Shown here: in pieces, positions 14,231 through 21,589 of the stretch | Numbering within the stretch: the stretch's first letter is position 1 | How the letters are laid out: each line of letters begins with the position of its first letter | Virus record (IMG/VR): IMGVR_UViG_3300037189_023550 | Coordinates: 1 to 21,589 of that record | Reading direction: 5' to 3' (one strand) | DNA length: 21,589 nt | Source: a virus | Position numbers and translations under genes: made by a program | The notes under the pieces: model-generated | What the model saw: the letters and a program-made list of their open reading frames with translations, nothing else | Databases searched by the model: none | What the model was told of the DNA's origin: nothing

Positions 14231-15259
14231 ATGAGTGCATACAAACAATTTCTTTCATCTGATATAATTGTTACCCCTTTTGAGGTAAATAAGAGTTTTA
14301 CTTTTACTGGAGCTAATCAACTAACAGGATCTATTGTTGGAATTGATAGATTTATAGGAACAAACCTTTCAGGAACTCTATTTAATCCAAATACAGATCC
14401 TACAACAGGACAAGTATCCACTCAATATCAGAGATTAATTTATAGTTCAATTCAAGAATTATATTATTCAAATTATTTAAGTTCTAGTTATGGTAGTCCT
14501 GCTACCACCCAAAGTTTATTCCCCGGTAATAATCCTGAAGGAAATGTTTATATAGGATCTAGTGATTCAAGTGGAAGATATTTTAATTATAATCAAACAA
14601 CTTTAACTTTTGAAAAATATTTCCCAACAGGTTCAGGTTCAGTAATAGGAGTAATGTCAGTTCCATCTAAATTATATGGAAATTATATCCAACCCGGTTC
14701 ATTTATATGGAATATGGTTAGTGGTTCTGTAAGTGGATCAATATATGATGATGCAAATGGAAATTTAATTTTATCATCATCAGGAGAAATTTGTGGTCAA
14801 ATATTTTATCCTCACGGTTTAGCAGTAATTACTAGTGATAGCAACCCAGGACTAAATGGTTATGGATCCGCAACATATGGTAGTAGTTTATATGGAGGTG
14901 GAAATGTACAAATTACTAATGCTTTTGTCACTTCATCAAATGTAACTTGTTCATTTTCTTCATCTCTTACAATATATGAAACTCAATATAAATGTACTAT
15001 TAGAGATAATGAATACAATTTTACCCTAAACCCAAGTATCTCCTCAGGAAGTACTCAAATTAGTGCCTCAAATGGTACTTTTTTTACACCGGGACAATAT
15101 CTATATAGTTTTGCAACTGCTTCGTATTTTAATCCTTATATTACAACAGTAGGGTTATATGATGACAATCAAAATTTAATAGCTATAGGTAAATTAGCAC
15201 AACCTTTACCTTTATCCCCTACAACCGATACAACAATATTAATTAATCTAGATAGATAA
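14231..15259 (+). CDS. Virion/tail structural protein, paralogue of the previous gene (B)
   Basis: 342 residues of the same type as its upstream neighbour. The N-terminus YKQFLSSDIIVTPFEVNKSF corresponds to the other protein's 'K-R-L-x-x-D-D-F-V-V' start. The C-terminus (near 301) reads YITTVGLYDDNQNLIAIGKL and then AQPLPLSPTTDT, ending in ILINLDR. The middle is Ser/Gly/Tyr-rich (ATYGSSLYGGGNVQITNAF around 215-233). The start chosen is ATG 14231; an overlapping ATG at 14227 lies in a different frame. The gap to the previous gene is five bases. The pair probably makes related surface structures. Duplication followed by divergence of the exposed middle is the simplest explanation. Confidence 0.68.
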   Translation: MSAYKQFLSSDIIVTPFEVNKSFTFTGANQLTGSIVGIDRFIGTNLSGTLFNPNTDPTTGQVSTQYQRLIYSSIQELYYSNYLSSSYGSPATTQSLFPGNNPEGNVYIGSSDSSGRYFNYNQTTLTFEKYFPTGSGSVIGVMSVPSKLYGNYIQPGSFIWNMVSGSVSGSIYDDANGNLILSSSGEICGQIFYPHGLAVITSDSNPGLNGYGSATYGSSLYGGGNVQITNAFVTSSNVTCSFSSSLTIYETQYKCTIRDNEYNFTLNPSISSGSTQISASNGTFFTPGQYLYSFATASYFNPYITTVGLYDDNQNLIAIGKLAQPLPLSPTTDTTILINLDR

Positions 15260-15261
15260 CC

Positions 15262-15798
15262 ATGGCAACTTTAAATAATTCCAACATTGTAAACGGAAAT
15301 ACAATCCAACCAAATGATATCCTACAACTATATTCAGCCTTAACATCAAATGGAGGATATGATGTTTCCATTAGTGGTAGTTTAACAGGTTCAGCAACCT
15401 CAGCCTCTTTTGCAATAAGTTCATCACGTGCTGTAACAGCCTCTTTTGCAATAAGTTCATCACGTGCTGTAACAGCCTCTTTTTCTTTAAATGCCTCTTC
15501 TACATTAGGTACCATAAATGTTATCCCTCAAGGAGATTCACCACGACTAATGTATTTAATTGCAGGATTTGCCACTTTTGGGGGAGGTTCTACCACATCT
15601 GCTTCTATTTCTTTAAATTCATTCTCTCCCGCACCTACTCCAACAACTTTAGGAACCGATATTTGGGTAACAGCAAACTCTGTAGACGATCCAGGTCCTC
15701 CAATTAAAGCAACAATTAATGGAGGTTATTTAGAATTTTTCGATGATACTTCTACATATATGGGTAATGTAATTTATACAGGATATATAAAAGTATAA
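15262..15798 (+). CDS. Short tail-fibre-like protein with tandem 12-residue repeats
   Basis: 178 residues. Residues about 36-80 are an Ala/Ser repeat region in which the 12-residue unit ASFAISSSRAVT occurs twice exactly and is followed by ASFSL; ATSAS precedes it. Such Ala-Ser-hydrophobic repeats are common in trimeric phage fibre shafts. After the repeats comes a beta-rich C-terminal domain (IPQGDSPRLMYLIAGFATFG, later GGYLEFFDDTSTYMGNVIYT) that would be the tip. It starts two bases after the previous stop, with no Shine-Dalgarno sequence. It is the last structural gene before the DNA-metabolism genes. Receptor binding is plausible but inferred. Confidence 0.65.
   Translation: MATLNNSNIVNGNTIQPNDILQLYSALTSNGGYDVSISGSLTGSATSASFAISSSRAVTASFAISSSRAVTASFSLNASSTLGTINVIPQGDSPRLMYLIAGFATFGGGSTTSASISLNSFSPAPTPTTLGTDIWVTANSVDDPGPPIKATINGGYLEFFDDTSTYMGNVIYTGYIKV
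15403..15474 (+). repeat. Perfect 36-bp tandem repeat, two copies, inside the fibre gene
   Basis: Bases 15403-15438 and 15439-15474 are identical. A third partial copy of nine bases (GCCTCTTTT) follows at 15475-15483 before the sequence diverges. The unit encodes 12 residues, so copy-number change keeps the frame. Identity at every synonymous position points to a recent duplication. Confidence 0.95.
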
Positions 15799-15803
15799 AA
15801 ATT

Positions 15804-16265
15804 ATGAAAAATTGGTTATATCAAAATAAAGAGGTAAATTCCCTAGAGGATTTACCTCAAGATGCTTTTGGTTTTATATATGTAACTACTCATATACCAA
15901 GTGGGAAAGCATATATTGGAAAAAAATCTTTATATCATAATATAAAGAAAAAACTCACTAAAAAAGAATTAGCTGAACAAACCGGACCTGGTCGTAAACC
16001 TACTACTAAAGTAGTTCAAAAAGAAAGCGATTGGAAAACATATTTTGGTTCTGCTAAACCTGTACTAGAAATCATCAAGGAAGACAAACAAGACGAATTT
16101 AAACGTGAAATTCTTAAAGTAGTTAATAATAAAAAATTATTGACTTATTACGAATGTAAGTATCTTTTTATGATGGGTGTTTTAGAATATCCCGAATCTT
16201 ATTTTAACGACAATATTTTAGGAAAATTTTTCGCACGTGACTTTGGAGTAGCAAAAGAGAATTAG
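15804..16265 (+). CDS. GIY-YIG-type nuclease-like protein
   Basis: 153 residues. The GIY and YIG strands are seen as GFIYVTTHIPSGKAYIGKKS (about residues 23-42). A basic insertion with KKKLTKKELAEQTGPGRKP follows. SDWKTYFGSAKPV (about 75-87) and the helix YYECKYLFMMGV (about 114-125) provide the later Tyr/Ser and the putative metal-binding Glu of the fold. The family includes T4 Seg homing endonucleases, but many phages carry such single-domain proteins as resident genes. No intron or split gene is evident here. It starts five bases after the fibre gene's stop and precedes the primase by 12 bases. Role: DNA cleavage or processing during replication or recombination, or exclusion of competing phage; the sequence does not decide. 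Confidence 0.72.
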   Translation: MKNWLYQNKEVNSLEDLPQDAFGFIYVTTHIPSGKAYIGKKSLYHNIKKKLTKKELAEQTGPGRKPTTKVVQKESDWKTYFGSAKPVLEIIKEDKQDEFKREILKVVNNKKLLTYYECKYLFMMGVLEYPESYFNDNILGKFFARDFGVAKEN

Positions 16266-16277
16266 TATATTATCATT

Positions 16278-17207
16278 ATGATAAATCAATCTCTAGTAGC
16301 ACTGACTAATTCTGTGCTTGGTTCTGGTAAACAAACGGCTCGTGGTAATTATGCTTACCATTGTCCTTTATGTAATCACCATAAACCTAAACTAGAAATC
16401 AATATGACTGAAAATGCTAAAGGAGAAAATCCTTGGCATTGCTGGGTTTGTGATAAAAAAGGTAAAAAACTTTACCAATTATTCAAATCAGCATCCGTTT
16501 CTCAAGATAAAATATCTGAATTAAAAGTTTTAGTAAAGTATGTAGGACCTGAAACCCATATTCAGATTGAACATAAATTACAACTTCCAAAAGAATTTAA
16601 ACCTTTAACAGATATTCAAAAATCCAACATCATAGGAAGACATGCTCTTTCGTATATCAAATCTCGAGGTATTACCGAAGAAGATATTTTAAAATATGGG
16701 ATTGGATATTGTGAGACAGGAAGATACGCTAATATGGTTATAATTCCCTCATTTGATGAAAATGGAACTATAAATTACTTTACAGGACGTTCATTTGAAA
16801 AAGAACCATCTGTAAAATATAGAAACCCATCAGTTTCTCGTGATATTATACCTTTTGAACTATTTGTAAATTGGGATTTACCTCTTATATTATGTGAGGG
16901 TCCATTTGATGCTATTGCTATTAAACGTAATGTTATTCCTTTACTTGGAAAAAACATTCAATCTAATTTAATGAAAAAAATAGTAAAATCAACAGTTGAT
17001 AAAATATACATTGCCTTAGATAAAGATGCTCAAAAACAAGCCTTAAATTTTTGCGAGCAACTTATGAAAGAAGGAAAAGAAGTTTATCTTGTAGATATGC
17101 AAGATAAAGACCCGAGTGAAATGGGTTTCAAAAATTTCACTAAACTAATTCAAGAAACCTACCCCTTAACATTTTCCGGTTTACTTGAGAAAAAATTATT
17201 TCTATGA
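16278..17207 (+). CDS. DNA primase, zinc-ribbon plus TOPRIM (T4 gp61-like)
   Basis: 309 residues. A zinc ribbon is formed by C29-x2-C32 and C55-x2-C58 (CPLC and CWVC). The catalytic TOPRIM domain has the acidic motif E207-G-P-F-D211 and the later D248-x-D250 (IALDKDA). Between them is the RNA-polymerase-like basic patch around GRSFEKEPSVKYRNPS. The length is close to T4 gp61 (342). Primases of this type make short RNA primers for lagging-strand synthesis with the replicative helicase; no helicase is fused here. The stop TGA overlaps the next start (ATGA), indicating coupled translation with the PD-(D/E)XK nuclease. Confidence 0.88.
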   Translation: MINQSLVALTNSVLGSGKQTARGNYAYHCPLCNHHKPKLEINMTENAKGENPWHCWVCDKKGKKLYQLFKSASVSQDKISELKVLVKYVGPETHIQIEHKLQLPKEFKPLTDIQKSNIIGRHALSYIKSRGITEEDILKYGIGYCETGRYANMVIIPSFDENGTINYFTGRSFEKEPSVKYRNPSVSRDIIPFELFVNWDLPLILCEGPFDAIAIKRNVIPLLGKNIQSNLMKKIVKSTVDKIYIALDKDAQKQALNFCEQLMKEGKEVYLVDMQDKDPSEMGFKNFTKLIQETYPLTFSGLLEKKLFL

Positions 17208-18156: not shown

Positions 18157-18522
18157 ATGAAATTATTAGACTTACTTAAAGAAGTAGAAGAAAAAAAAGA
18201 TAAAAAATCCATTAAAGAAGAGGATAGTCCAACTGTAGTAGATGAAATTGGTAAATTTTTCGTAGTTAAAAAACCTGGTAAAGGTATGACTAAAGAAGGA
18301 ATGGTTTGCGAAGCTACTGTATTTGACGAAATCAAAATGGAGGAAACTAAAGGTGTTTATAAAAACCGCTCTGAGGCTAATCGTCATGCTAATGAAGCTT
18401 TCATGGAATATGAATCGCAGCTTAAAGAAATGGAAGAGGCAATGGAAGCTTTCCGTGGTGCTAAAAAAGATATTGAAGAAAAGAAAGCAGCTGCAAAAGA
18501 AAAAATCCAAAAGCTTAAATAA
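18157..18522 (+). CDS. Coiled-coil protein with capsid-targeting-like N-terminus (possible prohead/internal protein)
   Basis: 121 residues, very rich in Lys and Glu. It begins MKLLDLLKEVEEK, a short amphipathic leader with an L7-K8-E9 triplet. The centre (FFVVKKPGKG, then a single Cys in GMVCEATVFDE) may be a small beta unit. From about residue 66 to the end it is a continuous charged helix (SEANRHANEAFMEYESQLKE, then KKDIEEKKAAAKEKIQKL) expected to form a coiled coil. By composition and coiled coil it resembles prohead core or internal proteins of T4-like phages, but I do not recognise a named family. The polyprotein starts two bases after its stop, so the two are co-translated. The start lacks a Shine-Dalgarno sequence (TATATAATT before ATG). 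Confidence 0.7.
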   Translation: MKLLDLLKEVEEKKDKKSIKEEDSPTVVDEIGKFFVVKKPGKGMTKEGMVCEATVFDEIKMEETKGVYKNRSEANRHANEAFMEYESQLKEMEEAMEAFRGAKKDIEEKKAAAKEKIQKLK

Positions 18523-18524
18523 TA

Positions 18525-21500
18525 ATGGATTTGCTTACCAAATTCTTATTGGAGGATCTTTTAGAAGAAGATAATCGAGACTATATTATTTATTTTGATG
18601 TAGATGATACTTTATCAAACTACACTCAAAATTTAGCAACTACGTTTATTAAGGATCCTGAAACTGGTGAAGATAGAAAAATCAAACCTCAAGATACAGT
18701 TGAAAATCTAGATTATTGGCTTAATGCCCCTATCATTCCAGGAGCTAAAGAAATGGTTGATTTTGCTAAAAATAATTTCAATAAAGTTGAAATACTTTCT
18801 GCTGTTCCTGAATTATCTAAAGCAAATAAAGAATTAACTGGTAGAAGATTTTTTGATGCTCCCATTGATGGTAAAACAGAATGGGTTACAAAAAATATAG
18901 GTTCATTACCAATGAATTGGTCCAAAAATGGTAAAGAAAAAGCATTATGGGCTACACCAAATTCCGTATTAATTGATGATAAACCCGAAAACATTAGAGC
19001 TTTTGAACAAGCAGGTGGGATTGGGATTTTAATAGATACTCCTCAAAATGTTATTATTAAACTTAAGGATCTATTAGAAGGAAAAGAAACCATCAATGAA
19101 GGTCGTTATGATTCATTAACAAGAATGATTGTTAAAGATATAATTAATGATTGGAAAAGTCAATATGATGGTACTCCTGAACTTTTAGAATATAATGAGG
19201 ATTATGAATCCGAAAATTCTAAAGGTCAATCTATTAACTTTGAACTTTATGCTACTTTAAATGTTAAAGAAACAAAAACAGAAGTTTATAGAGTAGATGG
19301 AGGAGCAGATCCATTAAGAACCCCAGCATATTTAGAAATTAAATTCCAAGTAGATCCTAGAGATTTACCTCAAAAATGGGAAACCATATATAATGATCTA
19401 ATAGATGTTGTTAGACATGAAATTGAACATTTAACTCAAGCCGGGTCTAATGTAATTTCGTCTAAAGAAATGGAAGATGATGAAATTTTACGAAATTTAA
19501 TTGCTTTAAAAGTTTTACCTAAATCAGAATACTTTAAATTAGAAAAAGAGGTAGATGCTATGCTTCAAGGTATGTACTTGAAAGCTAAAAAATCAAAAAC
19601 ACCTTTTAAAGATGTAATTAATGATTATTTTGATAAAGTAAGATTAAATAAAAAAGATAGAAATAATATTTTAGATTTATGGAAACAAAGAGCTAAAGCT
19701 TTATCTTTACCTTTACAAGAAAATTTAATAAACACAGATTATAAAGAAAAAATACAAGATCTAACAAAATACATGTTAGATAAAGGTATGAATATTCGTC
19801 CTTTGCCTAAAGTAAAATTTATACATGATGATAGTAAGAATGCTGAAGACTTTTTTGGTAAAACAGCATATTATAATCCTAATGATAAATTAATTGTACT
19901 TTACACTTATGGTCGTCATCCAAAAGATATTGTACGTTCATTTTCTCATGAAATGATCCATCATATACAAAATCTTGAAGGTAGAATAGGTAATGGTGAT
20001 ATTAATACTACTAATACAAATGAAGACGATTATTTAGAAACTATAGAAAAAGAAGCCTATCTAAATGGTAATATTGAATTTAGAAAATGGTCAGATAGTA
20101 AAACTAAATTAGACGAAGGGATTTTAGATAAAACTAAAAACCTAATTTCCACTTTCAAATCAGCTTATAAAGATCAAACAGGTGATTTTAAAGGATTTAA
20201 AGAATTATTTACCAAATATATTAAAAAACAAGAATTAACTCCTGAAGAAAAAGAAAAGTTACATCGTAATGTTGTAGACATATTCAAAATGAGCGCTATT
20301 CCCATTTTAGGAATTTCAGGAACTACATTATTAGGTACACTAACTAATTTTTTAAGTAAAGGTAAATTTTCAACATATCCTTCTAAATTTAAAGATAAAT
20401 TCTTCCCAATAAATGAAGTAGGTGAAGCTAATCTTGAACCTTATAAGTGGACAGAAGTTGATAGTAGTGGTCGAGTTACTTCTATAGAATTTACCACACC
20501 TTCCGAAACCAAATATGAGGTAGATTTAACACATATCGAAATTGACGATCCTGAAGATGAGGATATGTCTATGGAAGCTATGGATATTGAATTTTTAGCA
20601 AAACCTAAAGGTGCTGAGGGTTCATCTTCAAAAATAGTAGTCAATAAAGGAGAACTATATAGAGTAATGTCTACAATAACGAATATTATTAAACATTATT
20701 TAAGACAGTATAGAGGAGATATTAAAGCAATTTTATACTCCCCTTCTAAAAAATCAAGCGAAGAAGATTTTAGTAACCAAAGAGATAATTTATATAAAGC
20801 ATTTATATTAAAAGTATTTCCTGATGCTAAAATTAAACAACAAGGCGAGAATATAATAACCTACTTCCCAGGTAATGCTATAGTAGCAGAATTGAATATA
20901 CATCAAAAAGCATTATCCCAAACAGAAAAAGATGCATTAAAAATAACATATAAAAATTGGGATAAATTTGGAGGAAAAGAATGTAATAATGGTTTCTGTG
21001 ATATTTTTGCTAAAAATTTAAGTAAATATTTACCTGGCTCTAAAATAATGAGTACAGAAGATTCTAGAAATAATACATTAGGACATGTTTGGGTTGAATA
21101 TGAAGGTAAATATTTTGATGCTGAAACACCTAACGGAGTAGACTCATGGAAACAATTACCATGGATGATAGAATTTTATTCTAAAACCAAATCATACCCT
21201 ACAGACATAGAAAACCTAAACGAACTAATAATCCCAGAAAATGATCCTAAAAAAGGAACAGGTAAAAAACCTAAAGGATCAGGTCGTAGATTATACACAG
21301 ATGAAGATCCATCAGATACAGTTAGAGTTAAATTTAAAACCAAAGAAGATATCGTTGATACTTTAAATAAAAAATCATTTAAATCTAAAGCACACGCTCG
21401 TCAATCTCAAGTAATTAACTTAATTCACCAACGAGTAAGAGCAGCTTATGGTAAAGCAAAAGATCCTGAAGTGAAATCAAGATTAAAACGTGCTTTAGAT

Positions 21501-21589
21501 TATATTGAAAAACGTAAAGAAATGTCTAAAAAGAAGACACAACGTTTAAATAAAATGAAAGAAGCATCTGACCCACAAGCAGGTACAGC
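18525..21589 (+). CDS. Multi-enzyme polyprotein (HAD, two HExxH modules, LETM1-like, Cys/His/Asp module), 3' truncated
   Basis: I translated this frame by hand: it is open from ATG 18525 to the window end, giving 1021 residues with no stop. Modules in order: N-terminal leader MDLLTKFLLED (1-11); NT5C-type HAD phosphatase (about 20-185); HExxH module 1 (about 193-396, H298-E-I-E-H302); HExxH module 2 (about 400-528, H475-E-M-I-H479); LETM1-like segment with a hydrophobic stretch at 589-610; an unrecognised phage module (about 632-800); a peptidase-like module with C820/C825, H854 and D865; and a Lys/Arg-rich tail from about 905. (L/I)-x-E triplets lie in linkers, ending at E185, E192, E399, E531, E631 and E900. 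This suggests cleavage by a gp21-type prohead protease into separate proteins packaged in the head. It starts two bases after the coiled-coil gene. The frame is certain; the processing and packaging model is inference. Confidence 0.85.
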   Translation, partial: MDLLTKFLLEDLLEEDNRDYIIYFDVDDTLSNYTQNLATTFIKDPETGEDRKIKPQDTVENLDYWLNAPIIPGAKEMVDFAKNNFNKVEILSAVPELSKANKELTGRRFFDAPIDGKTEWVTKNIGSLPMNWSKNGKEKALWATPNSVLIDDKPENIRAFEQAGGIGILIDTPQNVIIKLKDLLEGKETINEGRYDSLTRMIVKDIINDWKSQYDGTPELLEYNEDYESENSKGQSINFELYATLNVKETKTEVYRVDGGADPLRTPAYLEIKFQVDPRDLPQKWETIYNDLIDVVRHEIEHLTQAGSNVISSKEMEDDEILRNLIALKVLPKSEYFKLEKEVDAMLQGMYLKAKKSKTPFKDVINDYFDKVRLNKKDRNNILDLWKQRAKALSLPLQENLINTDYKEKIQDLTKYMLDKGMNIRPLPKVKFIHDDSKNAEDFFGKTAYYNPNDKLIVLYTYGRHPKDIVRSFSHEMIHHIQNLEGRIGNGDINTTNTNEDDYLETIEKEAYLNGNIEFRKWSDSKTKLDEGILDKTKNLISTFKSAYKDQTGDFKGFKELFTKYIKKQELTPEEKEKLHRNVVDIFKMSAIPILGISGTTLLGTLTNFLSKGKFSTYPSKFKDKFFPINEVGEANLEPYKWTEVDSSGRVTSIEFTTPSETKYEVDLTHIEIDDPEDEDMSMEAMDIEFLAKPKGAEGSSSKIVVNKGELYRVMSTITNIIKHYLRQYRGDIKAILYSPSKKSSEEDFSNQRDNLYKAFILKVFPDAKIKQQGENIITYFPGNAIVAELNIHQKALSQTEKDALKITYKNWDKFGGKECNNGFCDIFAKNLSKYLPGSKIMSTEDSRNNTLGHVWVEYEGKYFDAETPNGVDSWKQLPWMIEFYSKTKSYPTDIENLNELIIPENDPKKGTGKKPKGSGRRLYTDEDPSDTVRVKFKTKEDIVDTLNKKSFKSKAHARQSQVINLIHQRVRAAYGKAKDPEVKSRLKRALDYIEKRKEMSKKKTQRLNKMKEASDPQAGT
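18582..19079 (+). other. Polyprotein module: NT5C-type HAD phosphatase
   Basis: Residues about 20-185. HAD motif I is D25-V-D27-D-T-L; motif II is the Ser in E-I-L-S92; K117-T-E-W-V and K139 supply the motif III lysine region; motif IV is L-I-D151-D152. The order and the PIIPGA stretch near 68-73 fit 5'(3')-deoxyribonucleotidases, which release phosphate from nucleotides. All catalytic residues appear present, so it is probably active. Confidence 0.75.
19101..19712 (+). other. Polyprotein module: HExxH metallopeptidase-like domain 1
   Basis: Residues about 193-396. The module opens with GRYDSLTRMIVKDIINDWK, directly after an I-N-E triplet. H298-E299-I-E-H302 gives the zinc motif. About 40 residues later EKEVDAMLQGMYLKAKK (E340/E342) may supply the third ligand. 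The substrate is unknown. Confidence 0.65.
19722..20108 (+). other. Polyprotein module: HExxH metallopeptidase-like domain 2
   Basis: Residues about 400-528. H475-E476-M-I-H479-H provides the zinc motif, and IEKEAYLNGNIEFRKW (E508/E510) the probable third Glu ligand. The upstream strand KLIVLYTYGRHPKDIVRSF is typical of small SprT/IrrE-like metalloprotease folds. It is clearly different in sequence from module 1, so this is not a simple duplication. Confidence 0.68.
20157..20390 (+). other. Polyprotein module: LETM1-like segment with a membrane-like stretch
   Basis: Residues about 545-622. LTPEEKEKLHRNVVDIFKMS leads into a 22-residue hydrophobic stretch (589-610) with P593, G596, G599 and G604, then a K/F-rich end (SKGKFSTYPSKF). 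The pattern follows LETM1-like segments known from bacterial and phage proteins; a membrane or pore role is possible. Confidence 0.5.
20940..21164 (+). other. Polyprotein module: Cys/His/Asp peptidase- or transglutaminase-like domain
   Basis: Residues about 806-880. C820-N-N-G-F-C825-D-I-F-A begins a helix; G853-H854-V-W-V-E-Y and F864-D865-A-E follow as strands. The order Cys (helix start), His (strand), Asp (strand) is that of NlpC/P60, papain-like and transglutaminase-like enzymes. C825 is the better nucleophile candidate. The family is not pinned down. Confidence 0.55.

Follow-up and report, generated by a model that had tools for sequence, protein, structure and literature searches.

A candidate capsid-targeted cargo polyprotein with prohead-protease-type joints in a T4-like phage

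In T4, the prohead protease gp21 cleaves after L/I-x-E and is reported to carry such sites near its own ends (PMC9026906), and the IP proteins of the same phage are an earlier example of cargo that is targeted, cut and injected and that acts against defences (PMC9026906, PMC12373910). Multidomain polyvalent proteins have, for their part, been likened to RNA-virus polyproteins (PMC5512222). Here we analyse a 21,589-nucleotide stretch of viral DNA (IMG/VR record IMGVR_UViG_3300037189_023550, positions 1 to 21,589; hereafter the window), which ends in the 5' part (1021 of 1220 codons) of a gene for a long multi-module protein (18525..21589, + strand, as for all features below). We propose, with a probability of roughly three in four, that this gene encodes a capsid-targeted head-cargo polyprotein that would be processed by the prohead protease and whose modules would be delivered to the next host. 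The proposal is built on an uninterrupted frame, module shuffling, a motif at the joints that is avoided inside the modules, a gp21 homologue, and the presence of the same motif in the capsid propeptide and the protease; that the chain is cut, packaged and injected, and what its modules do, are predictions from sequence.

In the proposed scheme, an N-terminal capsid-targeting peptide would carry the chain into the prohead core, where a gp21-type prohead protease would cut it after Glu at [LIV]-x-E joints, yielding products of 8-24 kDa (masses computed) that comprise a nucleotidase, two zincin-like domains, a YunG-like domain and unnamed modules. The cut proteins would stay with the DNA and enter the next host, there probably acting early in infection against host functions or defences; the nucleotidase, the protease-like modules and, in relatives, nicotinamide mononucleotide (NMN) adenylyltransferase-like modules would be well suited to interfering, soon after entry, with the host's metabolism or defence. 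Because the same signal stands at all joints, modules could be gained, lost and reordered without disturbing processing. A literature search returned no description of such a phage polyprotein, which is weak evidence of absence, as most subscription papers lay outside it.

The reading frame, its joints and their motif

An ATG at 18525 opens a frame that runs to 21587 without a stop and exits the window end. The first-pass annotation had reported a single frame of at least 1021 codons; the gene is longer than the window, being complete (1220 amino acids, aa) at positions 10001-13663 of L002, a 79,365-bp contig with 3 mismatches to the window over 13,065 nt. Residues 901-1220 hold three more modules, mostly past the window end. 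It might be suspected that a sequencing or assembly artefact had fused separate genes, as the source is metagenomic and the cultured phage immuto encodes its nucleotidase in a gene of its own. The same frame, however, is found in independent contigs, L002 and L003 (98% aa identity), the L003 version being 1104 aa long and lacking exactly one module. Among the 1102 codons shared by these two contigs, 56 changed codons are synonymous and 18 nonsynonymous, and the whole chain is therefore under protein-level, purifying selection. Furthermore, the same kind of fusion occurs in the isolate immuto, as a 907-aa protein. An artefact, which the first-pass annotation had named as a possible refutation, is thus exceedingly improbable, and the reading frame is real.

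The view that the frame is a polyprotein of modules also held. Parts of it are matched by 97 open reading frames (ORFs) of related contigs, with homology starting or stopping near residues 190, 400, 530, 630, 790, 900, 1013, 1091 and 1212. When relatives were annotated with nine pieces of the window gene plus two pieces found in relatives, the survey of module order that had been suggested for related phages gave 57 distinct orders and 48 distinct adjacencies; unrelated domains are thus combined in one chain and shuffled between elements, as in polyvalent proteins.

A [LIVM]-x-E tripeptide stands at every boundary of the 1220-aa protein, from LLE14 through LEE1212. In the window these are INE192 followed by GRYD (19092..19100), LQE399 followed by NLIN (19713..19721), LDE531 followed by GILD (20109..20117), INE631 followed by VGEA (20409..20417; a further site, VGE634, follows and precedes A), VAE789 followed by LNIH (20883..20891), LNE900 together with IPE905, the latter followed by N (21216..21239), and MKE1013 followed by ASDP (21555..21563); LKE1091 and LEE1212 lie past the window, in L002. 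By way of illustration, since joint intervals were set by eye from homology ends, 17 of the 22 such tripeptides in the 1220 residues fall in joints. A stricter motif, [LI].E[AG], was discarded as too narrow.

The motif accompanies modules into other contexts. Module B is preceded by a joint of the LNE|G(R/K)YD type in 32/32 other contexts and has the motif downstream in 18/19, and module C has it upstream in 65/66 and downstream in 61/63, compared with 0.29 for random stretches. Between L002 and L003, seven whole modules have been gained or lost in three genes, and every seam carries [LIVM]xE with P2 free (for example INE|A...LNE|A, DFMNE|A...LNE|A, LQE|K...LEE|G and VAE|L...IPE|N). VAE789 is the left seam of the module absent in L003 (IVSE|ADPKK), and LNE900/IPE905 is the right seam of this gain or loss of module F. 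The pattern includes two further polyprotein genes downstream (14804-16303 and 16328-17842 in L003, 15152-16375 and 16400-17866 in L002), in which modules have come or gone at joints of the forms LNE|A, INE|A, LEE|G and MNE|A. The prohead-protease-type sites at the joints, and the exchange of modules there, are the key feature of the locus and one that the first-pass annotation had missed.

With no motif assumed beforehand, residue pairs of every kind, 1-3 positions apart, were counted around 666 homology breakpoints from 74 non-redundant polyproteins. L.E ranked first (245 occurrences vs 86 expected, z 17.1), and [LIVM].E lies at most 8 residues from 55.7% of breakpoints vs 20.7% (standard deviation 1.6%) of random positions. 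Inside modules [LI].E is rarer, at 0.59 of expectation (bootstrap 95% confidence interval 0.52-0.65) and below expectation in 65 of the 74 ORFs. Other patterns inside modules give ratios of 1.28 ([LI].D), 1.24 ([LI].K), 1.10 (E.[LI]) and 0.94 ([LI]..E), and the [LI].E ratio is 1.24 in other ORFs of the contigs and 1.16 in tail proteins. This avoidance would be hard to explain if the chain were not cleaved. Perhaps the protein nevertheless remains an uncut multidomain chain in which LxE joints are linkers, or recombination seams of short shared DNA. The joints are indeed sites of module recombination, which shared linker DNA would promote, yet the freedom at P2 (LTE, LKE, LNE, LEE, LQE, INE, VAE, MNE) fits a peptide motif rather than shared DNA, and seams would leave both the avoidance inside modules and the match to the capsid propeptide unexplained; we therefore regard an uncut chain as quite unlikely.

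That match is conserved. L002 encodes a gp21-family protease (E=5.3e-31), the S77 family was found in 9/10 records, and the gp21 homologues of eight related phages conserve ELDHP and GxSSRG and carry [LIV]-x-E-type sites near both of their own ends. In the capsid proteins of eight related phages, the propeptide conserves LLE|S/N, LLE|G, ILE|N and LV[TVS]E|, and [LI].E reaches 3.3x its expected frequency there, compared with 0.93x, no excess, in the mature part. The shared motif also bears on whether the chain might instead be packaged, or expressed, in one piece, with its own metallopeptidase modules cutting it in the head or after injection, as under a polyvalent-protein model. Two HExxH modules are indeed present, autoproteolysis is a published proposal for multidomain phage conflict proteins (PMC5512222), and module C weakly matches MPTase-PolyVal in 4/27 members (best E=0.048). 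However, the motif at the joints is the one seen in the capsid propeptide and at the protease termini; two sister polyprotein genes share the same joints and hold no HExxH module, so that an embedded peptidase is not needed; and many relatives lack module B, some lacking both B and C. Self-cleavage is, in our judgement, unlikely.

Several observations weigh against processing of a cargo polyprotein by the prohead protease. The joint motif is short and degenerate, and 44% of breakpoints, many of them from weak alignments, have no motif within 8 aa. Tail proteins from the same contigs, used as a control, also show an excess at breakpoints, though a much weaker one (20.0% vs 12.4%, with a second pair of values at 0.186 vs 0.105 for random positions), and breakpoints of related sequences are non-independent, which inflates the z-scores. 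An obvious targeting peptide is missing from some polyproteins, among them the one encoded by the cultured phage immuto (MSGVAGGNRIL...). An N-terminal [LIVMF].E occurs in 58/73 polyproteins vs 629/1233 other ORFs and, being common in the latter, was rejected as proof of targeting.

The modules

The chain opens with a putative capsid-targeting propeptide, MDLLTKFLLEDLLEE (18525..18569), with sites at LLE10, LLE14 and LEE15. Similar N-termini, such as MNQLTKFLVDSILNE and MDSLTKSLIKDLLPE, each ending at a site, are seen in many related polyproteins, though not in all. A recurrent amphipathic linker, DPFGLNxYARELAxxLEE, precedes joints (residues ~1072-1091 of the L002 polyprotein; 29 distinct copies across loci); it resembles the N-terminal targeting peptide and may be an internal targeting element or a spacer.

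Module A (18570..19100, 20 kDa) matches phrog_2643 (E=3.1e-21) and, below the cut-off, Pfam NT5C (E=0.0022), and the HAD motifs DVDDT and DDKPEN are visible; the sequence thus confirms the nucleotidase of the first-pass annotation as an NT5C-like 5'(3')-deoxyribonucleotidase. It is the first module in the window's chain and the last in most relatives. Most related polyproteins (L039, L049, L009, L082 and many others) open instead with an NMN-adenylyltransferase-like domain, GGGFKPPTKGHF, which is absent from the window's chain; in immuto, a gene annotated as NAD synthetase lies nearby. It is conceivable that the NMN-adenylyltransferase-like module is linked to host defences that deplete nicotinamide adenine dinucleotide (NAD).

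The two zinc-peptidase-like modules that had been called are likely zincin-like domains, as judged from an HExxH and downstream Glu invariant in each alignment. Module B (19101..19721, 24 kDa), an HEIEH domain of a family that has no Pfam name, keeps H108, E109, H112 and E152 invariant in 28 aligned sequences. Its predicted structure, which spans exactly site to site, has a predicted local distance difference test (pLDDT) score of 93.5; the model gave no PDB match at E<=0.001, while in BFVD it matched one phage protein well (TM 0.78), itself uncharacterised. Module C (19722..20117, 16 kDa) carries HEMIHH, with H76, E77 and H80 accompanied by E109/E111 in 27 aligned sequences, and is weakly M91/PipA/DUF6782-like (M91 in 22/27 members, DUF6782 in 18/27).

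Module D (20118..20417, 11 kDa) is basic and helical with a short hydrophobic stretch. It corresponds to the segment first labelled LETM1-like, a label that found no support: Pfam and PDB sequence searches gave no LETM1 match at E<=1 and no related PDB chain. Module E (20418..20891, 18 kDa) is an alpha+beta domain whose model (pLDDT 78) found no significant fold match and gave a weak GNAT-like hint only. Module F (20892..21224, 13 kDa) is YunG-like and possibly a Cys-His-Asp peptidase: the three residues are visible, as claimed for a Cys peptidase-like module, but the supporting match to Pfam PF24591 is weak (E=4.8e-4, 20.4 bits vs a cut-off of 27), and only four close relatives cover the module. 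Four further contigs (among L106-L112) whose architectures differ carry module F at 82-90% identity, with their other modules far more diverged, a pattern that suggests recent transfer of single modules. The claim that each module shows its catalytic residues thus stands for the nucleotidase and for modules B and C, and candidate residues are visible in F; the LETM1-like label lacks profile support.

Module G (21225..21563, 13 kDa; DPKKGTGKKPKGSGRRLYTDE...) is basic and conserved in many contexts. Module H starts at 21564..21589 and continues in L002; it is zinc-ribbon-like (CxxC...CxxC) and ends in a DPFGLKEYARELVQELKE linker and a site. Module I and the rest of module H lie past the window end, in L002. 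Profile searches gave no family name for modules D, E, G and I, and a search of a defence-system library gave no match.

Genomic setting

The source phage is T4-like and belongs to the Immutovirus group. Judged by its capsid protein, it is closest, among cultured phages, to Immutovirus (52% identity), followed by Microcystis phage Mel-JY01 (47%). The locus lies between tail genes and the genes for terminase, portal, prohead protease and capsid. The 5' side holds baseplate and tail genes of the T4 type, together with genes for a DnaG-like primase (phrog_47) and an exonuclease of the RecB type (phrog_298). The gene directly upstream (18157..18522, 121 aa) is the neighbour that had been described as internal-protein-like, and this description is borne out: its N-terminus, MKLLDLLKEVEEKK, resembles a capsid-targeting sequence on inspection, and its C-terminus is Glu/Lys-rich and coiled-coil-like; it has no family match in a profile search. 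On the 3' side, L002 carries two further multi-module genes (407 and 488 aa) and several short genes with N-termini like capsid-targeting peptides (MENLHQLIREVLESK, MDKLKKIISEVLQEKK, MINLLELLKEAKE), followed in order by terminase, portal, the gp21-family protease, an acidic scaffold-like protein and a gp23-family capsid protein.

Because the locus adjoins head genes, a role in head maturation deserves consideration: the chain could be cut and its fragments serve assembly before exiting the head, like T4 gp22 and gp67, and T4 core proteins are indeed cut into multiple fragments (excerpts of PMC9026906). The modules here, however, are folded, catalytic-looking and avoid internal sites, and the extreme variation in their presence, which extends to strains that are 98% identical, is not what an essential core part shows. 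We hold a scaffold role to be very unlikely. The first-pass annotation had offered either a packaged effector cassette or a head-maturation complex; the former appears from the sequence to be the best explanation, and the latter is less likely because strains that are nearly the same differ freely in their modules, which essential head parts do not.

Some relatives (L124-L127) sit in contigs of bacterial metagenome-assembled genomes (MAGs; Flavobacteriales NAT55 and others) and are probably phage contigs binned with their hosts; relatives in Flavobacteriales MAGs agree with Bacteroidota hosts. The capsid gene is immediately followed by a small gene (L091, contig 19646-20272 of the L002 record) whose product has a CxxC zinc motif and an HNH-like sequence and is possibly a homing endonuclease.

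Comparison with described systems

Beyond this one gene, we lean towards the view that Immutovirus-like members of the T4-like phages share a general design for delivering cargo, in which effector cassettes would be swapped between universal prohead-protease sites, so that one packaging signal and one protease could serve an open-ended set of injected enzymes. If true, the proteolysis that matures the capsid would, in tailed phages, also process modular polyproteins, a counterpart of RNA-virus polyprotein processing, and the packaging of many effectors by one targeting signal would be explained. LxE joints flanking LxE-free modules would, in turn, give a sequence rule for finding injected effectors and their boundaries in uncultured phages. 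Many database names for such genes would then cover one module only (e.g., NMN adenylyltransferase for the 907-aa immuto protein).

The cultured Flavobacterium phage vB_FspM_immuto_2-6A (Immutovirus) is alike in holding, at the same locus position, a 907-aa T-N-C-B protein (QQO91862.1, L082:13285-16005) and an adjoining targeting-tagged nucleotidase gene. Its record differs in annotating an NMN adenylyltransferase and a separate 5' nucleotidase, with the polyprotein not noted; the 907-aa protein also holds modules T, C and B besides the annotated NMN adenylyltransferase. Polyvalent proteins (Iyer et al. 2017, PMC5512222) resemble the chain in their 2-15 domains, common metallopeptidases and presumed delivery with DNA. 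Their release, however, is ascribed to embedded peptidases, whereas the joints here match the phage's prohead protease and the modules avoid such sites internally. That work mentions neither LETM1 nor papain, and a nucleotidase appears in it once, in another context. In phiKZ and SPN3US (gp175, gp245), many head proteins are cut after x-x-E, some multiply, but these multiple cuts remove propeptides, and the available parts of the sources (PMC9026906, PMC10052503) describe no chain in which enzyme modules can be exchanged.

T4 IPI-III and Alt share with the locus a gp21-type protease, the L/I-x-E motif, N-terminal targeting-like peptides and small, variable cargo near head genes, and the IP sets of T-even phages likewise differ from strain to strain (PMC12373910, citing Repoila et al. 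1994). T4 cargo, however, consists of one protein per gene with a terminal propeptide (C-terminal too in Alt), whereas the chain described here strings together as many as about nine folded modules; each joint has a site, and it is at these sites that modules are shuffled.

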